Assembly (NCBI RefSeq): GCF_014762765.1
Contig: NZ_JABURH010000131.1
Coordinates: forward strand, 1 to 64,000
Source: Alcanivorax sp.
Lineage (GTDB): Bacteria; Pseudomonadota; Gammaproteobacteria; Pseudomonadales; Alcanivoracaceae
DNA length: 64,000 nucleotides
Reading direction: 5' to 3'
Below the pieces are notes generated by a model, which saw nothing but the letters and a program-made list of their open reading frames with translations, ran no database searches and was not told the origin of the DNA. The translations under genes and the position numbers were made by a program. Positions within the stretch are counted from its first letter, which is position 1, and the number at the start of each line of letters is the position of its first letter. Below are positions 4,043-40,461 of the stretch, in pieces.

Positions 4043-4609
4043 ATGCTGAACGACTTGGGGATTCCTGAGCACCTCATCTGGAAACTGAATGATTTTGACA
4101 ACCACCAACGAGCCGTCAATTTCATCAAGCAGTTTCAGGAAACGCTGTGCGTATACAGTGCGCCGGTGGAGCAGCTCTATACCAACTACGATATTTCCAT
4201 ACCGCCGGATGATGAGCGCTCGCTGGTCATTCTGCCCAACCCCTATGCCTACCACGATACGTTTAACAATATCGGGAACCATAGCGTACACCCTACCGGC
4301 ATGCATATTTTGCCCGGCGAGTTTTTCAACAAAGAAGGACTCTTTCTGACTCTGCGGCTACTCAAGAATAACGAAAAGGTTATTAAGCCGGTGCCCCTGA
4401 AAGTGGGCCTCTGGGCACTGATGAAAAAGGAAACTGAGGAAGTGCCCTTCCTTCCTGTGATCACCAAGGGGGACCTTCGGGCCTTTCGCAAAGACTCACC
4501 CTCGCTTCACTTGCACCGGATCCAGCCATCCAAGCTGTCTGACCGCTCGCCCATGGAGGTCAAGGCAATCCAGCGGGTCATCCGCGAAAAGCTGAAGGTG
4601 TATATGTAA
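4043..4609 (+). CDS. Hypothetical protein (188 aa)
   Basis: Complete ORF on its own between two minus-strand genes; no recognised domain. Confidence 0.7.
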   Translation: MLNDLGIPEHLIWKLNDFDNHQRAVNFIKQFQETLCVYSAPVEQLYTNYDISIPPDDERSLVILPNPYAYHDTFNNIGNHSVHPTGMHILPGEFFNKEGLFLTLRLLKNNEKVIKPVPLKVGLWALMKKETEEVPFLPVITKGDLRAFRKDSPSLHLHRIQPSKLSDRSPMEVKAIQRVIREKLKVYM

Positions 4610-4714: not shown

Positions 4715-5449
4715 TCAGTCCGACTGAGCGTAGCAGTGGTCCAGTGCCAGGACATAGTATTCCAGCCCTTTGACTGCTGCGGCGAAGGCTCTTGTCCGGC
4801 TTTCCTGATTGACACAGGTAAGCTTGATGAGCTCCATGGCTTCGTGGGGGTGGGCGTCGTCGTAGGAGGCGTGGGCCCGTAGCCAGGCCATGGAATGACG
4901 ATTAATGGTGGCCACCCCGTTTTCCTGATAGGCCTGCATACCCTTGACCACACTCTGGCTCCATTCGCCAGTAGCCCATTCAATGGCCAGATTGGTGGCG
5001 GCAAGGCCCTCCTCCAGGCTGGCCTGGCGCCCCATGTGCCAGAGGTAATGGTTCACCGCATCCATGGCTGGCGGCGGCGTAACAAACTCCAGTTCTTCCA
5101 GGGTAATTCCAAAGCCCATGGCCCAGTCCTGGTACCAGTAGGCATGGCGCTGTTCGACCTTGATGTTGCTGATCAGCCAGTTCTTGCTCTCTTCGTGACC
5201 GGGATAGCGGCCCGGCTGGGTCTTGGCCAGGTTCAACCCCATATACTTGGGAAAGTTTTCCACCAGGGGATAGAAATTCAACAGGGCACTGCGAAAACGC
5301 GGCAAGCTGAGGGTTCCGGCTCCCATTTCCACAAACACCGGATGCTCCACCACCCGGTTTTTCAACGGTACCAGATCGTCCCAGAAGGCCTGGGCCCAGG
5401 GGCTGTGGTCGGTGAGTTCGAGACCTTTCTTGTAATTTGCGGCGCGCAT
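4715..5449 (-). CDS. UndA-like / TenA-like iron-containing redox enzyme (heme-oxygenase-like diiron oxidase)
   Basis: 244 aa; NIKVEQRHAYW (E-x2-H), AATNLAIEWATGEWS, LRAHASYDDAHPHEAMEL (H-x3-D-x2-H). Confidence 0.85.
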   Translation of the reverse strand: MRAANYKKGLELTDHSPWAQAFWDDLVPLKNRVVEHPVFVEMGAGTLSLPRFRSALLNFYPLVENFPKYMGLNLAKTQPGRYPGHEESKNWLISNIKVEQRHAYWYQDWAMGFGITLEELEFVTPPPAMDAVNHYLWHMGRQASLEEGLAATNLAIEWATGEWSQSVVKGMQAYQENGVATINRHSMAWLRAHASYDDAHPHEAMELIKLTCVNQESRTRAFAAAVKGLEYYVLALDHCYAQSD

Positions 5450-5517
5450 TTGTCGTTCTCCATAACAACCGGTTGTTGCAGCTCATGGCTTGGCGACCAT
5501 GACCTACAGATAGCACA

Positions 5518-7560
5518 CTAGTCCAATAATTTGTATAAGCGATTTCTCAGGCTTCGTAAATGACGCCTTTGTCGCTTGTCCGGCGCTGAAACAGGATCAT
5601 AGTGGAGCTTCTGATAGTATTTTGCCCAATTCTCCGCAGCAACCGCCGCCTGAGGCCACTGCTCGCTGATTGCGTCACTCAACTGCATGGGGGTCAGTCC
5701 CACCGCCAGTGGCCGCCCCCGTTCACTGGCACGCTGATGCAATCGCCAGTATTCACGCTCCATCAGCGTCAGCCTCGCATTGCCGGTCCTCCAAAGTAGA
5801 AACAGGGCATAGAGCCCCATCAACATGGCGACAGCAACGATCAGCGCAATGGCAATGCGGACTGGTGAAACAACGCCGAGCAGATCTTCCAGAAATGCGG
5901 ACTGAAAGGCGCTATCGTACCCCAGCACCCAGGTTTGCCAGCGGAAATCCACGTAATCCACCCACTGACTGACTTTCGCAAATAGCCCCCCATCCGAGAA
6001 ACGGCGGAGCCCCAGATCATCCAGCACATCTCTGCCGTCTTCACTGTTCTCAAGGGCCTCCCTTAGCCCAAGCTCGATGCGCTCAGGCGCTACCGCGCCG
6101 GTAGGGTCCACACGGGTCCATCCCTGCCCTTCAAGCCAGATCTCGCTCCAGGCATGGGCATCGTACTGTCGCACCAGCAAATGGGTACCCAGTTGATTCT
6201 GCTCGCCTCCTTGGTAGCCCACCACGACCCTGGCCGGCACCCCGGCCGCGCGCATCAGGAAGGTAAAGCTGGAGGCATAGTGCTCACAGAATCCACGCCG
6301 GGTCCGAAAAAGGAAATCATCCACTGGATCCGCGGTGAGCCTGGGTGGCCTCAGGGTGTAATGAAAAGGTTGCTCACGGAAATGACGCAACGCTCGCTGG
6401 GCAATTTCACGTGCTGAATGGCTTTCCAGCTGCCATTGCTGCGCGAGCCCTCTGGCTTTCCTTCCTGACTCCTGCGGTAACGACAGCATCAGTTGTCGCT
6501 CCTGCCCGTCAAGGCTGATAGCGTCAGTGGCTGCAGGCACGCTTTCCACACGATAGGCAAACCGCTGCGACACCGGCTGGTCAGCCACCAGCCGCATATC
6601 CTTGGCCAGCGCCATGCCTTCATCCAGTGGGAAAGGAACGGCCAGGCTGAACAGCCAACGGCGCTGGGTCGGTTCGGCAATGATCTGGTAGCGATACCGT
6701 TGTTGCTCCGCGGCTCGACGGCTCTCGAGCTGCTGGTACCAAACCGGTTTTTGATTCCCTCTCCGGTACAGGTATTCTGACTCCGCCTGTCCCTGGGGCA
6801 CTGCCTGCTGCCAGGTGCGTCCGTCGTAGTGGCTCAACGTCAGCCCCCGCCAGTAACGCTGTGGCCGAGGCGGAATGTCTCCCTGAAAGTCTACCCGGAA
6901 GGCCAGCTCCGCAGATTCCGACAGTTCACTGATCTGGCCCGGTGACATACTGTCGCTCATACCAGTGCGGGCCTTGTCTTCCCCCACTTGCATATTCCAC
7001 AGTGGTGCCACCCGTGGCACCAAAAGGAACAACACCACCATCAGGGGAATAGCCTGCAAAGTCATGACCATCGCCCGCTTGCCATGCAGCAAGCCGCTGG
7101 CCCGGGTGTCACTGTGATTGATCCCCACCAGACAGGTAGTCAGGACCGTCATGCACAGGACCACATAGAGGAACATGCCCGGTGTCTGGGAAAACAACAG
7201 TGCCGTGGCGCATACGAAATACCCCAGCACAATTACCACATAGGCATCACGCTGCTGCACCACTTCCAGATACTTGAGAGCAAACAGGCTGACCAGCAAG
7301 GCAACGCCCGCTTCCGGCCCGTACAATCTGCCAAAGCTGTAAAAGGTCAGCCCCACAGCGCCAATCAATAGCAGCGTACGCACTATGCGGCCGGGCAGAG
7401 TAAGGCGCTGCTGATCCACCAGCCAGCGGATCAGGATCACCAGCACCAGCAACCCGGCCTGCCAGAGAGGCCCTTTGACCAGTTGGGGGATGGAACACAG
7501 CACCACTGCCAGGGCTAGCCAGAGTCTGGTATGAGACGGGACCTGATAAATGCGCGCCAT
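5518..7560 (-). CDS. TgpA-type transglutaminase-like membrane protein (DUF3488 + transglutaminase core)
   Basis: Multiple N-terminal TM segments, RRGFCEHYASSFTFLMRAAGVPARVVVGYQGGE and YDAHAWSEIWLEGQGWTRVDPT transglutaminase motifs; start taken at MARIYQVPSHT (7560). Confidence 0.93.
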   Translation of the reverse strand: MARIYQVPSHTRLWLALAVVLCSIPQLVKGPLWQAGLLVLVILIRWLVDQQRLTLPGRIVRTLLLIGAVGLTFYSFGRLYGPEAGVALLVSLFALKYLEVVQQRDAYVVIVLGYFVCATALLFSQTPGMFLYVVLCMTVLTTCLVGINHSDTRASGLLHGKRAMVMTLQAIPLMVVLFLLVPRVAPLWNMQVGEDKARTGMSDSMSPGQISELSESAELAFRVDFQGDIPPRPQRYWRGLTLSHYDGRTWQQAVPQGQAESEYLYRRGNQKPVWYQQLESRRAAEQQRYRYQIIAEPTQRRWLFSLAVPFPLDEGMALAKDMRLVADQPVSQRFAYRVESVPAATDAISLDGQERQLMLSLPQESGRKARGLAQQWQLESHSAREIAQRALRHFREQPFHYTLRPPRLTADPVDDFLFRTRRGFCEHYASSFTFLMRAAGVPARVVVGYQGGEQNQLGTHLLVRQYDAHAWSEIWLEGQGWTRVDPTGAVAPERIELGLREALENSEDGRDVLDDLGLRRFSDGGLFAKVSQWVDYVDFRWQTWVLGYDSAFQSAFLEDLLGVVSPVRIAIALIVAVAMLMGLYALFLLWRTGNARLTLMEREYWRLHQRASERGRPLAVGLTPMQLSDAISEQWPQAAVAAENWAKYYQKLHYDPVSAPDKRQRRHLRSLRNRLYKLLD

Positions 7561-7568
7561 GGAAAACC

Positions 7569-8525
7569 TCAGTAATCCGGATAGCTGGCCAGAGCATCCA
7601 GCAGCCGCCACCGATGCACATCACCGGTATCCGGCGCCAACGTCAGGCCCGGCAACTCCAGACCATAGGGCTGGCGCTGCTGGTCCAGTTGCAAAACCCA
7701 GTAGCACAGTATGGAAAGTCGCTGCTCCTCGCCAAGGCCCTGCAAACGATCCCAGCGCAACCATAAACGGCCGCCCACCGGTTCCTCGAACTGCTTGATA
7801 TTCAAGCCGCGACCCCGTGCGTAACCTTTCCAGTCTACCCGGCGCAGGGAGTCCCCAGGAGTGTAGCTGCGCAGCCCCTGGAATTCGTCATTGCCTGGCT
7901 GGCCACTGCTGAACGCCTGCTGATTTTCCTTGCCGCCATCTGCCGGGCAATCCAGACTTTCCTCCGGCCGTGGCCAGGCCAGACAATAGTGGTCCAGCGA
8001 TACATAGGACCAGGTGCGTAACAACCCCAGCGGAAAGCGGCTTTCCACCTTGAGGCGAGGTGCCGCCACCCTCCCTCGTTCTGTCAGTGGCAGATTCAGC
8101 CACAGGCTTTCTTCTTCACCTCTGCGGATACTGATCTGCTGGCCGTCCTGACCACGCCAGCGGAACCAGACGCAATGGTGATCTCGTCGCTGGGCAAACA
8201 ATACGAGTTCCAACGCGCCTTCCTCTCCCGCAAAACCGGATTCGCTATCGCCGTTACGCATGCCCAGGGCAAACAGATTCCGGAAGGTATGCAGAATCGC
8301 CACCATGAACAAGCTGGCGAGCAGGAAGGACAAGGCCAGAATCAGATTGTTTTCGTAATTGATACCGCCGATGAAAAGCAGTGCGGCCACCAACAGATAA
8401 AAGAAACCGTAACCGGTGGGCAAAATAAATATGCGCCGCCGATCCAGCACGATCTGCCTGGCCGGAGGCAAGCGCCGGGCCAGCCAGCGTTCATAAAGGT
8501 CCCGTATCGGCGCCGGCAGCTGCAT
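7569..8525 (-). CDS. DUF58 domain-containing protein
   Basis: Two N-terminal TM helices, F/L-RSYTPGDSLRRVDWKGYARG motif typical of DUF58; located between TgpA and MoxR genes. Confidence 0.92.
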   Translation of the reverse strand: MQLPAPIRDLYERWLARRLPPARQIVLDRRRIFILPTGYGFFYLLVAALLFIGGINYENNLILALSFLLASLFMVAILHTFRNLFALGMRNGDSESGFAGEEGALELVLFAQRRDHHCVWFRWRGQDGQQISIRRGEEESLWLNLPLTERGRVAAPRLKVESRFPLGLLRTWSYVSLDHYCLAWPRPEESLDCPADGGKENQQAFSSGQPGNDEFQGLRSYTPGDSLRRVDWKGYARGRGLNIKQFEEPVGGRLWLRWDRLQGLGEEQRLSILCYWVLQLDQQRQPYGLELPGLTLAPDTGDVHRWRLLDALASYPDY

Positions 8526-8528
8526 GGA

Positions 8529-9440
8529 TTAGCGACGTATGACTGGCACGGACTGCAGCAGGGACTGGGTAATGGCCGCCACACTCCCCCCCTGACGGGC
8601 ACTCAGACGGTGCTCCGCCACGGATGGCCATACCGCCTGCACATCTTCCGGCAATACATAATCCCTGCCACTGACCAGGGCCCAGGCCCGGGCTGCCTTG
8701 AGCAAGCCCAGGCCGGCTCGGGGAGACAGCCCAGCGACGAAACGGTCATCGGAACGGGTGGTATCCAGCAAACGCTGAACATAGTCCAGCAACTCATGGC
8801 TGGCGCGGACTTTACCCACCACCCGTGACAACTTGATCAACCCTTCACTATTAATCACTGACTGCAGCTCACGAACCTGCTCACGCAGGTCGCCACCAGC
8901 CAATAGCTGCAGCTCAACTTCAGGGGCCGGGTAGCCCAGGGAAATCCGCATCAGAAAACGATCAAGCTGCGATTCAGGCAATACGAAGGTTCCCGCCTGA
9001 TCCACCGGGTTCTGGGTGGCAACAACAAAGAAGGGTTGCGGCAAGGGACGGGTCACGCCGTCCAGGGTCACCTGTCGCTCTTCCATGGCTTCAAGCAGCG
9101 CACTCTGCGTTTTCGGTGTGGCCCGATTGATTTCATCGGCCAGCAGTAACTGGGTGAAAACCGGCCCTTCACGAAGGGAAAACTGCTGTGTGTTGGGATC
9201 GAATACGGAGACGCCGAGAATATCCGCCGGCAACATATCACTGGTGAACTGCACCCGCCGGTACTCAAGCTTGAACACCCGGGCCAAAGCATGAGCAAGC
9301 GTGGTTTTCCCCATGCCAGGCAGGTCTTCGATAAGCAGATGGCCATTGGCCAGCATGCAGGTAAGCGCGAGCTTCAATTGTTCTTCTTTGCCCAGTACCA
9401 CGCGGCCCACCTGGGCCAGGGCTTTATCCAGTGCCTGCAT
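8529..9440 (-). CDS. MoxR-family AAA+ ATPase
   Basis: EDLPGMGKTTLAHALA Walker A, LLADEINRATPKTQSALLEAMEERQVTLDG, VVATQNPVDQAGTFVLPESQLDRF. Confidence 0.95.
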   Translation of the reverse strand: MQALDKALAQVGRVVLGKEEQLKLALTCMLANGHLLIEDLPGMGKTTLAHALARVFKLEYRRVQFTSDMLPADILGVSVFDPNTQQFSLREGPVFTQLLLADEINRATPKTQSALLEAMEERQVTLDGVTRPLPQPFFVVATQNPVDQAGTFVLPESQLDRFLMRISLGYPAPEVELQLLAGGDLREQVRELQSVINSEGLIKLSRVVGKVRASHELLDYVQRLLDTTRSDDRFVAGLSPRAGLGLLKAARAWALVSGRDYVLPEDVQAVWPSVAEHRLSARQGGSVAAITQSLLQSVPVIRR

Positions 9441-39376: not shown

Positions 39377-40461
39377 GCTGTCTCCTGGCCTGCCGGCGTC
39401 TGCTCAATCAATTTCAACAGGGGCGCCAGCTGGCGTTTCAAGTCCGGCAATGCATTCACCACCACACGGGTCTTGCCTGCCCGCAACAGGGTGAGTGCCT
39501 GCTCTATGGTTATCGTAGGCGTTGTCTGGGTGGTGGCCAGAGGCTCATCGGGGCCATCTCTGACCACCGCGCCGGGCCCGGCCAAGCGTGCCTTGCTCAT
39601 CTGTTCATCCAATACCGTCTGTACCTGGCGGGGCATCAGCCCGGTATGCGCGGTGGGCGTATGAATGACCACCGACAGCGGCAATTGCTGTGCCCGGCCA
39701 CGAAATTGAAAAGCCAGCTTTTCGCTGACCTTCAACGCCCGCTCGACAAAACGCTGGGCACCATTGGCACCGGCACTGGGCAACAGAATCGTGAACTGGG
39801 CCACGCTGCTTCTTGCCAGCGAATCTTCCTTACGTACCACTCCCCGCATCAACTGCGCCATTTTCATCAGCACCATATCGGTTCTGCGTTTACCGAGCTG
39901 TACGAAAAGTTGATTGAATTGGTAAATCTCCAGTTGCACAACCGACAGCGGAATCTGCTGACGACTGGCTAGCGCCAGCTCCTGGCGCAGGCGATGCTGC
40001 AAATAGCGACGGTTACCCAATCGGGTGAGCGGATCGATCATGGCCTGGCGAGCCAGTTCCTTGCGCTCACGCTGGTAGTGGGCATGAGCACGGGCACGGG
40101 CCAGAAGATCCGTGGAATTAAACGGCTTGCTGATAAAGTCGGTGCCACCCAGACGCAGGGCTTCGCTGCGTGTTTCCTCATCATTCTCTGCACCGGTAAC
40201 GATGATCACCGGCAGGCCGGCAATGCCGTCATCCTCACTGGTGCGGATTTTTTTCAGTAACGTAAAGCCATCCATTTCCGGCATGGCCAGGTCGGAAAAG
40301 ACCACGCTGATGGTCGGGTTGTGGCAGATCATTTCCCAGGCTTCGACGCCGTTTTCCGCCACTTCCACACGAAATTCCCTACCCAGCATTTTGTCTGCGG
40401 CAAGACGCATTACCTTGGAGTCATCCACAAACAGTAATACCGGTTTGTTGTTCTTATCCAT
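39373..40461 (-). CDS. Response regulator with degenerate GGDEF domain
   Basis: REC domain (LLFVDDSKVMRLAADKML...VVFSDLAMPEMDG...ISKPF) then RLGNRRYLQHRLRQEL... GGDEF fold with SSVAQF in place of GGDEF. Start at MDKNNKP (40461). Confidence 0.9.
   Translation of the reverse strand: MDKNNKPVLLFVDDSKVMRLAADKMLGREFRVEVAENGVEAWEMICHNPTISVVFSDLAMPEMDGFTLLKKIRTSEDDGIAGLPVIIVTGAENDEETRSEALRLGGTDFISKPFNSTDLLARARAHAHYQRERKELARQAMIDPLTRLGNRRYLQHRLRQELALASRQQIPLSVVQLEIYQFNQLFVQLGKRRTDMVLMKMAQLMRGVVRKEDSLARSSVAQFTILLPSAGANGAQRFVERALKVSEKLAFQFRGRAQQLPLSVVIHTPTAHTGLMPRQVQTVLDEQMSKARLAGPGAVVRDGPDEPLATTQTTPTITIEQALTLLRAGKTRVVVNALPDLKRQLAPLLKLIEQTPAGQETA

Follow-up and report, generated by a model that had tools for sequence, protein, structure and literature searches.

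An undA homologue in Alcanivorax likely to encode an UndA-type fatty-acid decarboxylase, and the c-di-GMP gene neighbours of its relatives

The undA locus

The window, by which the whole stretch of 64,000 nucleotides analysed here is meant, belongs to a 3.5 Mb genome. Among named organisms, the closest to it at the protein level are Alcanivorax sp. DSM 26293 (98% identity) and A. jadensis T9 (95%). Alcanivorax is an oil-degrading marine bacterium known for eating hydrocarbons, and the guess in the initial annotation that the host is a hydrocarbon specialist was right, its closest named relatives being Alcanivorax species. The features of the locus are collected in Table 1. The order of genes in Alcanivorax is purF-metZ-moxR-DUF58-tgpA-undA-orf4043-hrpB, which is retained from purF to undA in Alloalcanivorax. 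The short gap between tgpA and undA on the same strand suggests co-transcription, and undA probably closes a moxR-DUF58-tgpA-undA operon, with tgpA as its partner by position. This arrangement differs from that in Pseudomonas, where undA adjoins rbdA instead of following tgpA.

Table 1. Features of the undA locus, with proteins from other loci that carry a shared N-terminal membrane domain (coordinates are those of the window unless a locus is named).
Feature	Coordinates	Strand	Remarks
Gene for conserved 188-aa protein	4043-4609	+	convergent with undA in Alcanivorax
undA homologue, 244 aa	4715..5449	-	ATG start; predicted 3-His/3-carboxylate diiron fatty-acid decarboxylase, from sequence, profile, fold and ligand evidence
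Ligands H193, D197, H200 (HxxxDxxH), codons of residues 193-200	4850..4873	-	position from ORF; UndA-aligned columns
Ligand E157 codon	4979..4981	-	position from ORF; UndA-aligned column
Ligands E99 and H102 (ExxH), codons of residues 99-102	5144..5155	-	position from ORF; UndA-aligned columns
GGAG ribosome-binding-site-like motif	5458..5461	-	8 nt upstream of undA ATG
14-bp perfect palindrome	about 5464-5477		just upstream of the ribosome-binding motif
tgpA (TgpA_N and transglutaminase core)	5518..7611	-	68 bp upstream of undA, same strand
DUF58-type gene	7569..8525	-	upstream of tgpA; by sequence resemblance and gene order, no family search
MoxR-type AAA ATPase gene	8529..9440	-	first of cluster; by sequence resemblance and gene order
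Weak GGDEF-like match	39547-40068	-	E 1.4e-8 to diguanylate cyclase query; far from undA
Protein with shared N-terminal membrane domain, L115	5436-6665		GGDEF or GGDEF-EAL; undA-adjacent
Protein with shared N-terminal membrane domain, L137	8451-9680		GGDEF or GGDEF-EAL; undA-adjacent
Protein with shared N-terminal membrane domain, L040	3426-5978		GGDEF or GGDEF-EAL; undA-adjacent
Protein with shared N-terminal membrane domain, L051	6786-8486		GGDEF or GGDEF-EAL; undA-adjacent

A single PF14518 gene is present in the host genome. Values of dN/dS for undA between Alcanivorax species were 0.025 and 0.029 for the two closest and 0.07-0.08 for more distant ones, values that indicate strong purifying selection. 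The stretch TTGTTATGGAGAAC at the GGAG motif is kept in most Alcanivorax. The palindrome listed in Table 1, AACAACCGGTTGTT, was considered as an operator and rejected, its exact form being lost in relatives, and a promoter scan returned nothing above chance. The 188-aa protein encoded on the other side of undA had no Pfam match; a relative of it adjoins the undA homologue of one further locus (L050), in which no other neighbours from the window were found.

Assignment to the UndA family

When the window protein was compared with all PDB sequences using phmmer, the best matches were the UndA-type sequences 3OQL from P. syringae (E 9.9e-48), 4WWJ (3.1e-46) and 6P5Q (5.2e-46), with CADD the next at E 1.3e-4. 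A profile of 25 relatives reached these three entries at 4.7e-62 to 3.6e-59 and CADD at 1.4e-11, whereas BesC, the enzyme that fragments 4-chloro-lysine and resembles the window protein in fold class and type of C-C cleavage chemistry, was reached at 0.009 by profile and at about 3e-5 by structure. Pfam matches were to Haem_oxygenas_2 (E 4.8e-18) and TENA_THI-4 (E 1.9e-11). The AlphaFold2 model (alignment A1; mean pLDDT 91.1, pTM 0.88) is all helical, with the seven-helix heme-oxygenase fold. UndA structures took ranks 1-7 in a Foldseek search of the PDB (E 2e-14 to 2e-13, TM to query 0.81-0.84), above CADD at an E of about 1e-6 and a TM of 0.72. Additionally, the third ligand helix of the model is broken at residues 197-199, between H193 and H200, which fits the flexible helix known for the superfamily (PMC13108848).

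The residues put forward at the outset as metal ligands, namely E99 and H102 (VEQRH), E157 (AIEWATGEWS) and H193, D197 and H200 (HASYDDAH), were found where claimed, and each column matches an iron ligand of UndA from P. protegens Pf-5. The set characteristic of heme-oxygenase-like diiron oxidases (E-x2-H, E and H-x3-D/E-x2-H on three core helices) is present in the window protein, and none of the six ligands varies among the rows compared from the window-type clade and from the Pseudomonas/Burkholderia UndA clade. Invariant in both clades also is W189, the counterpart of the radical-forming or radical-relay residue W190 of UndA (PMC13108848), and the motifs TNxAIExATGxW and WLxxHxxYDDxHPxEAxE are retained. 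The description of the protein as an UndA-like heme-oxygenase-fold diiron oxidase rather than CADD or a thiaminase is thus upheld by the sequence and profile matches, by the predicted structure and by the conserved ligands. The window undA is a further member of a known enzyme family, and the observation is real, the phmmer and Pfam matches and the low dN/dS lying far outside what chance would give. By comparison with the UndA structures from Pf-5 (4WWJ, 4WWZ, 4WX0 and 6P5Q) and P. syringae (3OQL), the protein has the same fold, six ligands, W190 equivalent, length and core motifs. However, identity is about 36-40%, the two fall in separate clades, and residues near the metals are altered in the window protein.

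Phylogeny and residues near the ligands

In a tree computed without long-branch rows, the Pseudomonas/Burkholderia UndA clade (bootstrap/SH-aLRT support 100/100) and an Alcanivoracaceae-Moraxellaceae clade that includes an Omnitrophota row (100/98) were separated, at 35-40% identity between the window's clade and UndA, and a Myxococcota pair formed a third branch; the root among the three branches is not settled, and CADD was included in a separate quick tree. Placement outside the UndA clade, which the initial annotation had named as counting against its reading, is in the strict sense what the tree shows, the window protein lying in its own well-supported clade, although UndA is still its nearest relative among proteins with a solved structure. 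The uncharacterised UndA homologues that the literature notes in Acinetobacter and in other Moraxellaceae belong to the window's clade at 53-65% identity.

Differences near the ligands, near here meaning near in sequence, comprise Y60 (W in UndA), W105-Y106 (Y-W), L136 (C), L154 (Y), W158 (G), which adjoins ligand E157, A192 (M/L) and A235 (F), and are consistent within the window-type clade. Since several near-metal positions differ in this consistent manner from UndA, the chain length accepted, or even the reaction, could differ also.

Distribution and probable loss of undA

An undA homologue was found in 36 of 46 Alcanivoracaceae genomes and in 39 of the 149 genomes of a family (f37) that loci in common with named records identify as the Moraxellaceae, whose orthologues include one in A. 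baumannii. The order sample yielded 18 of 295 genomes, where the additional homologues were about 40% identical and came from a family (f21) that by inference is the Pseudomonadaceae, and the class sample five of 369, the window's own genome among the five. These counts indicate a distribution that is patchy and concentrated.

Within Alcanivorax, genome G001 (locus L146), which appears to be A. borkumensis SK2, has moxR, DUF58, tgpA, orf4043 and hrpB in unchanged order and undA missing. Between tgpA and orf4043, at about 4965-5320 of L146, lies a degraded remnant with stops, whose start reads ATGCGCACGGTAAGGTACAAGAAAACGTTGGAG, compared with MRAANYKKGLE in the window, and which further along reads FWDELAPLESRV, compared with FWDDLVPLKNRV. 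The remnant was read by eye and from short blastn matches, that inside the gene covering 36 bases at 81% (E 0.004), and it points to a probable loss of undA in this apparent A. borkumensis lineage.

Predicted reaction and alternatives

It seems likely that the window gene encodes an UndA-type oxidative decarboxylase making a terminal alkene from a fatty acid, a reading to which a probability of about 0.6 is assigned. UndA itself is a diiron fatty-acid decarboxylase (PMC13108848). By analogy, the window protein would be a soluble seven-helix enzyme in which E99, H102, E157, H193, D197 and H200 bind two irons; the carboxylate of a medium-chain free fatty acid would coordinate one iron, O2 would be converted to a peroxo-diferric intermediate, and the chain would be released as a terminal alkene together with CO2. 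Direct results of the analysis are the predicted fold, the set of metal ligands, the conserved W189, the purifying selection and the conserved gene order; binding of a diiron cluster and activation of O2 are predictions, and metal content, fatty-acid substrate, alkene product and operon expression of the window gene are inferred. The substrates are most likely C10-C14 fatty acids, the altered positions making the exact chain length uncertain; that lauric acid would be converted to 1-undecene is unproven.

Reports on Acinetobacter, a genus with orthologues of the window's clade, fit an UndA role weakly. Traces of 1-undecene, about 4.5 ug/l, were produced by an A. baylyi ADP1 control with an empty plasmid, that is, without plasmid-borne undA, in a study that also noted UndA homologues in Acinetobacter (PMC6410514), and the markers listed for the breath of patients with A. 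baumannii include 1-undecene (PMC7111428); neither report ties the alkene to the undA homologue. Against an UndA role, A. guillouiae MYb10, a strain that may or may not carry undA, gave off no volatiles above detection (PMC10791660).

The alternatives differ in how far they depart from UndA. A CADD-type self-sacrificing p-aminobenzoate synthase or a TenA thiaminase would have the fold in common with the window protein, which matches both weakly, and the Chlamydia CADD protein shares the heme-oxygenase-like dimetal fold. Against this, the window protein scored 38.2 bits on the CADD model (NCBIfam TIGR04305, cut-off 200) and 16.9 bits on that for TenA thiaminase II (TIGR04306, cut-off 130), identity to CADD in the structural alignment is about 20%, and the structural E-values trail those for UndA by some seven to eight orders of magnitude, which leaves such an identity with hardly any probability. 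On model scores and structure ranking, assignments to CADD, TenA and PqqC were dropped. It is improbable, though less extremely so, that the protein makes no alkene and serves as a protective factor against oxidative stress in the manner of Acinetobacter DtpC, a heme-oxygenase-like protein. Such a diiron domain can indeed protect dried cells from peroxide (PMC13232832), but dtpC is co-transcribed with katE and its product was recognised via structure, not sequence (PMC13232832), whereas the neighbours of the window undA are tgpA and the hrpB-side genes, and in the phmmer comparison with the PDB, DtpC being outside the alignment, the window protein is far closer to UndA.

A more serious competitor, although still the lesser prospect, is a diiron oxidase of the UndA family with a remodelled pocket, acting on another lipid or chain length or catalysing another reaction, for instance on an oxidised or branched fatty acid. 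The separate clade and the fixed substitutions near the ligands would be expected of such an enzyme, and heme-oxygenase-like diiron enzymes catalyse many different reactions (PMC13108848). However, retention of the ligands, W189 and both core motifs speaks for the decarboxylase, as does the c-di-GMP gene neighbourhood that related loci have in common with Pseudomonas undA.

c-di-GMP genes beside undA homologues

To our knowledge, a link between undA and c-di-GMP genes has so far been reported only for rbdA in Pseudomonas. That association goes back to Rui 2014, as cited in PMC10614000, a paper that itself found undA expression to be important for biofilm maturation. In the Moraxellaceae, a divergently transcribed membrane diguanylate cyclase gene, its product with a shared N-terminal domain, adjoins undA in 28 of 30 loci (L076-L105), the remaining two being L087, where a same-strand GGDEF-EAL gene lies upstream of undA, and L097, which is ended by the contig edge; none adjoins the window gene. 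The gene beside the A. baumannii homologue is annotated "diguanylate cyclase", and a cyclase of this type occurs also in one other Alcanivoracaceae genus (L048, L049). HTCC5015 (L040) has a different GGDEF-EAL gene directly upstream of undA, and L051 a GGDEF gene downstream. A GAF-PAS-GGDEF-EAL gene lies directly downstream in five Alloalcanivorax-type loci; in others of that type a membrane diguanylate cyclase gene converges on undA from about 0.9 kb downstream, and RbdA-like GGDEF-EAL genes lie upstream in Burkholderia and Caballeronia. The c-di-GMP partners of undA homologues are thus of several unrelated architectures and extend beyond the Pseudomonas rbdA link. Loci with such a neighbour were L076-L105, L115-L121, L123-L125 and L137 in the Moraxellaceae, and elsewhere L048, L049, L045, L040, L051, L033, L034, L039, L042 and L043.

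The Moraxellaceae cyclase shares a homologous N-terminal membrane domain with the HTCC5015 and L051 proteins (hhalign probability 97.3%, E 2e-11); in these domains, no Pfam domain scored above its cut-off. The shared domain is a candidate for an undescribed sensor domain.

No GGDEF gene was found within 1 kb of undA in the window and 15 other Alcanivorax loci (L001-L016), whereas most other groups of the window's clade do have an adjacent c-di-GMP enzyme gene. An orthologous cyclase is present in Alcanivorax unlinked to undA, about 1 Mb away in G004; in the window's genome it is a fragment located at the end of a contig. With 10 to 47 GGDEF domains per sampled genome, the chance that a random gene touches a GGDEF gene is roughly 0.5-2%, a rough estimate assuming about one gene per kb. 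Parsimony on the tree required 11 changes of neighbour state, with gains, losses and switches pooled and some rows having short flanks. This is only a rough sign of repeated pairing. The pattern was recognised post hoc, and an association of this kind does not establish function.

That many relatives of the window gene within its clade lie beside c-di-GMP genes, as Pseudomonas undA lies beside rbdA, suggests a shared biological role. A wider model can be drawn only tentatively, and we consider it unlikely in full: UndA-type enzymes could feasibly act as effectors or signal sources of c-di-GMP modules well beyond Pseudomonas, having been paired repeatedly with unrelated c-di-GMP enzymes, and the undescribed membrane sensor domain on several partners might respond to the fatty acid or the alkene, tying a volatile hydrocarbon to whether cells live on surfaces or free; Alcanivorax would have kept both genes unlinked, and A. 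borkumensis would have lost the enzyme.

1-Undecene is a volatile hydrocarbon made by Pseudomonas UndA from fatty acids, and no paper connecting UndA with Alcanivorax was found in the literature searched. An alkene-making enzyme in a hydrocarbon-eating bacterium would, if true, be an added biological source of marine 1-alkenes, and the window's clade would be a new UndA clade for biofuel enzymology. With the wider link to c-di-GMP genes, the question of what 1-undecene is for becomes testable in several genera.

Matches in the plasmid collection were mostly to chromosome-sized or megaplasmid records, and therefore make no case for a mobile gene in the window; the exception among them is a conjugative Burkholderia ambifaria plasmid (L140). 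On this plasmid a GGDEF-EAL gene is paired with an undA homologue near transposition genes, and the pair is a possible route of spread.
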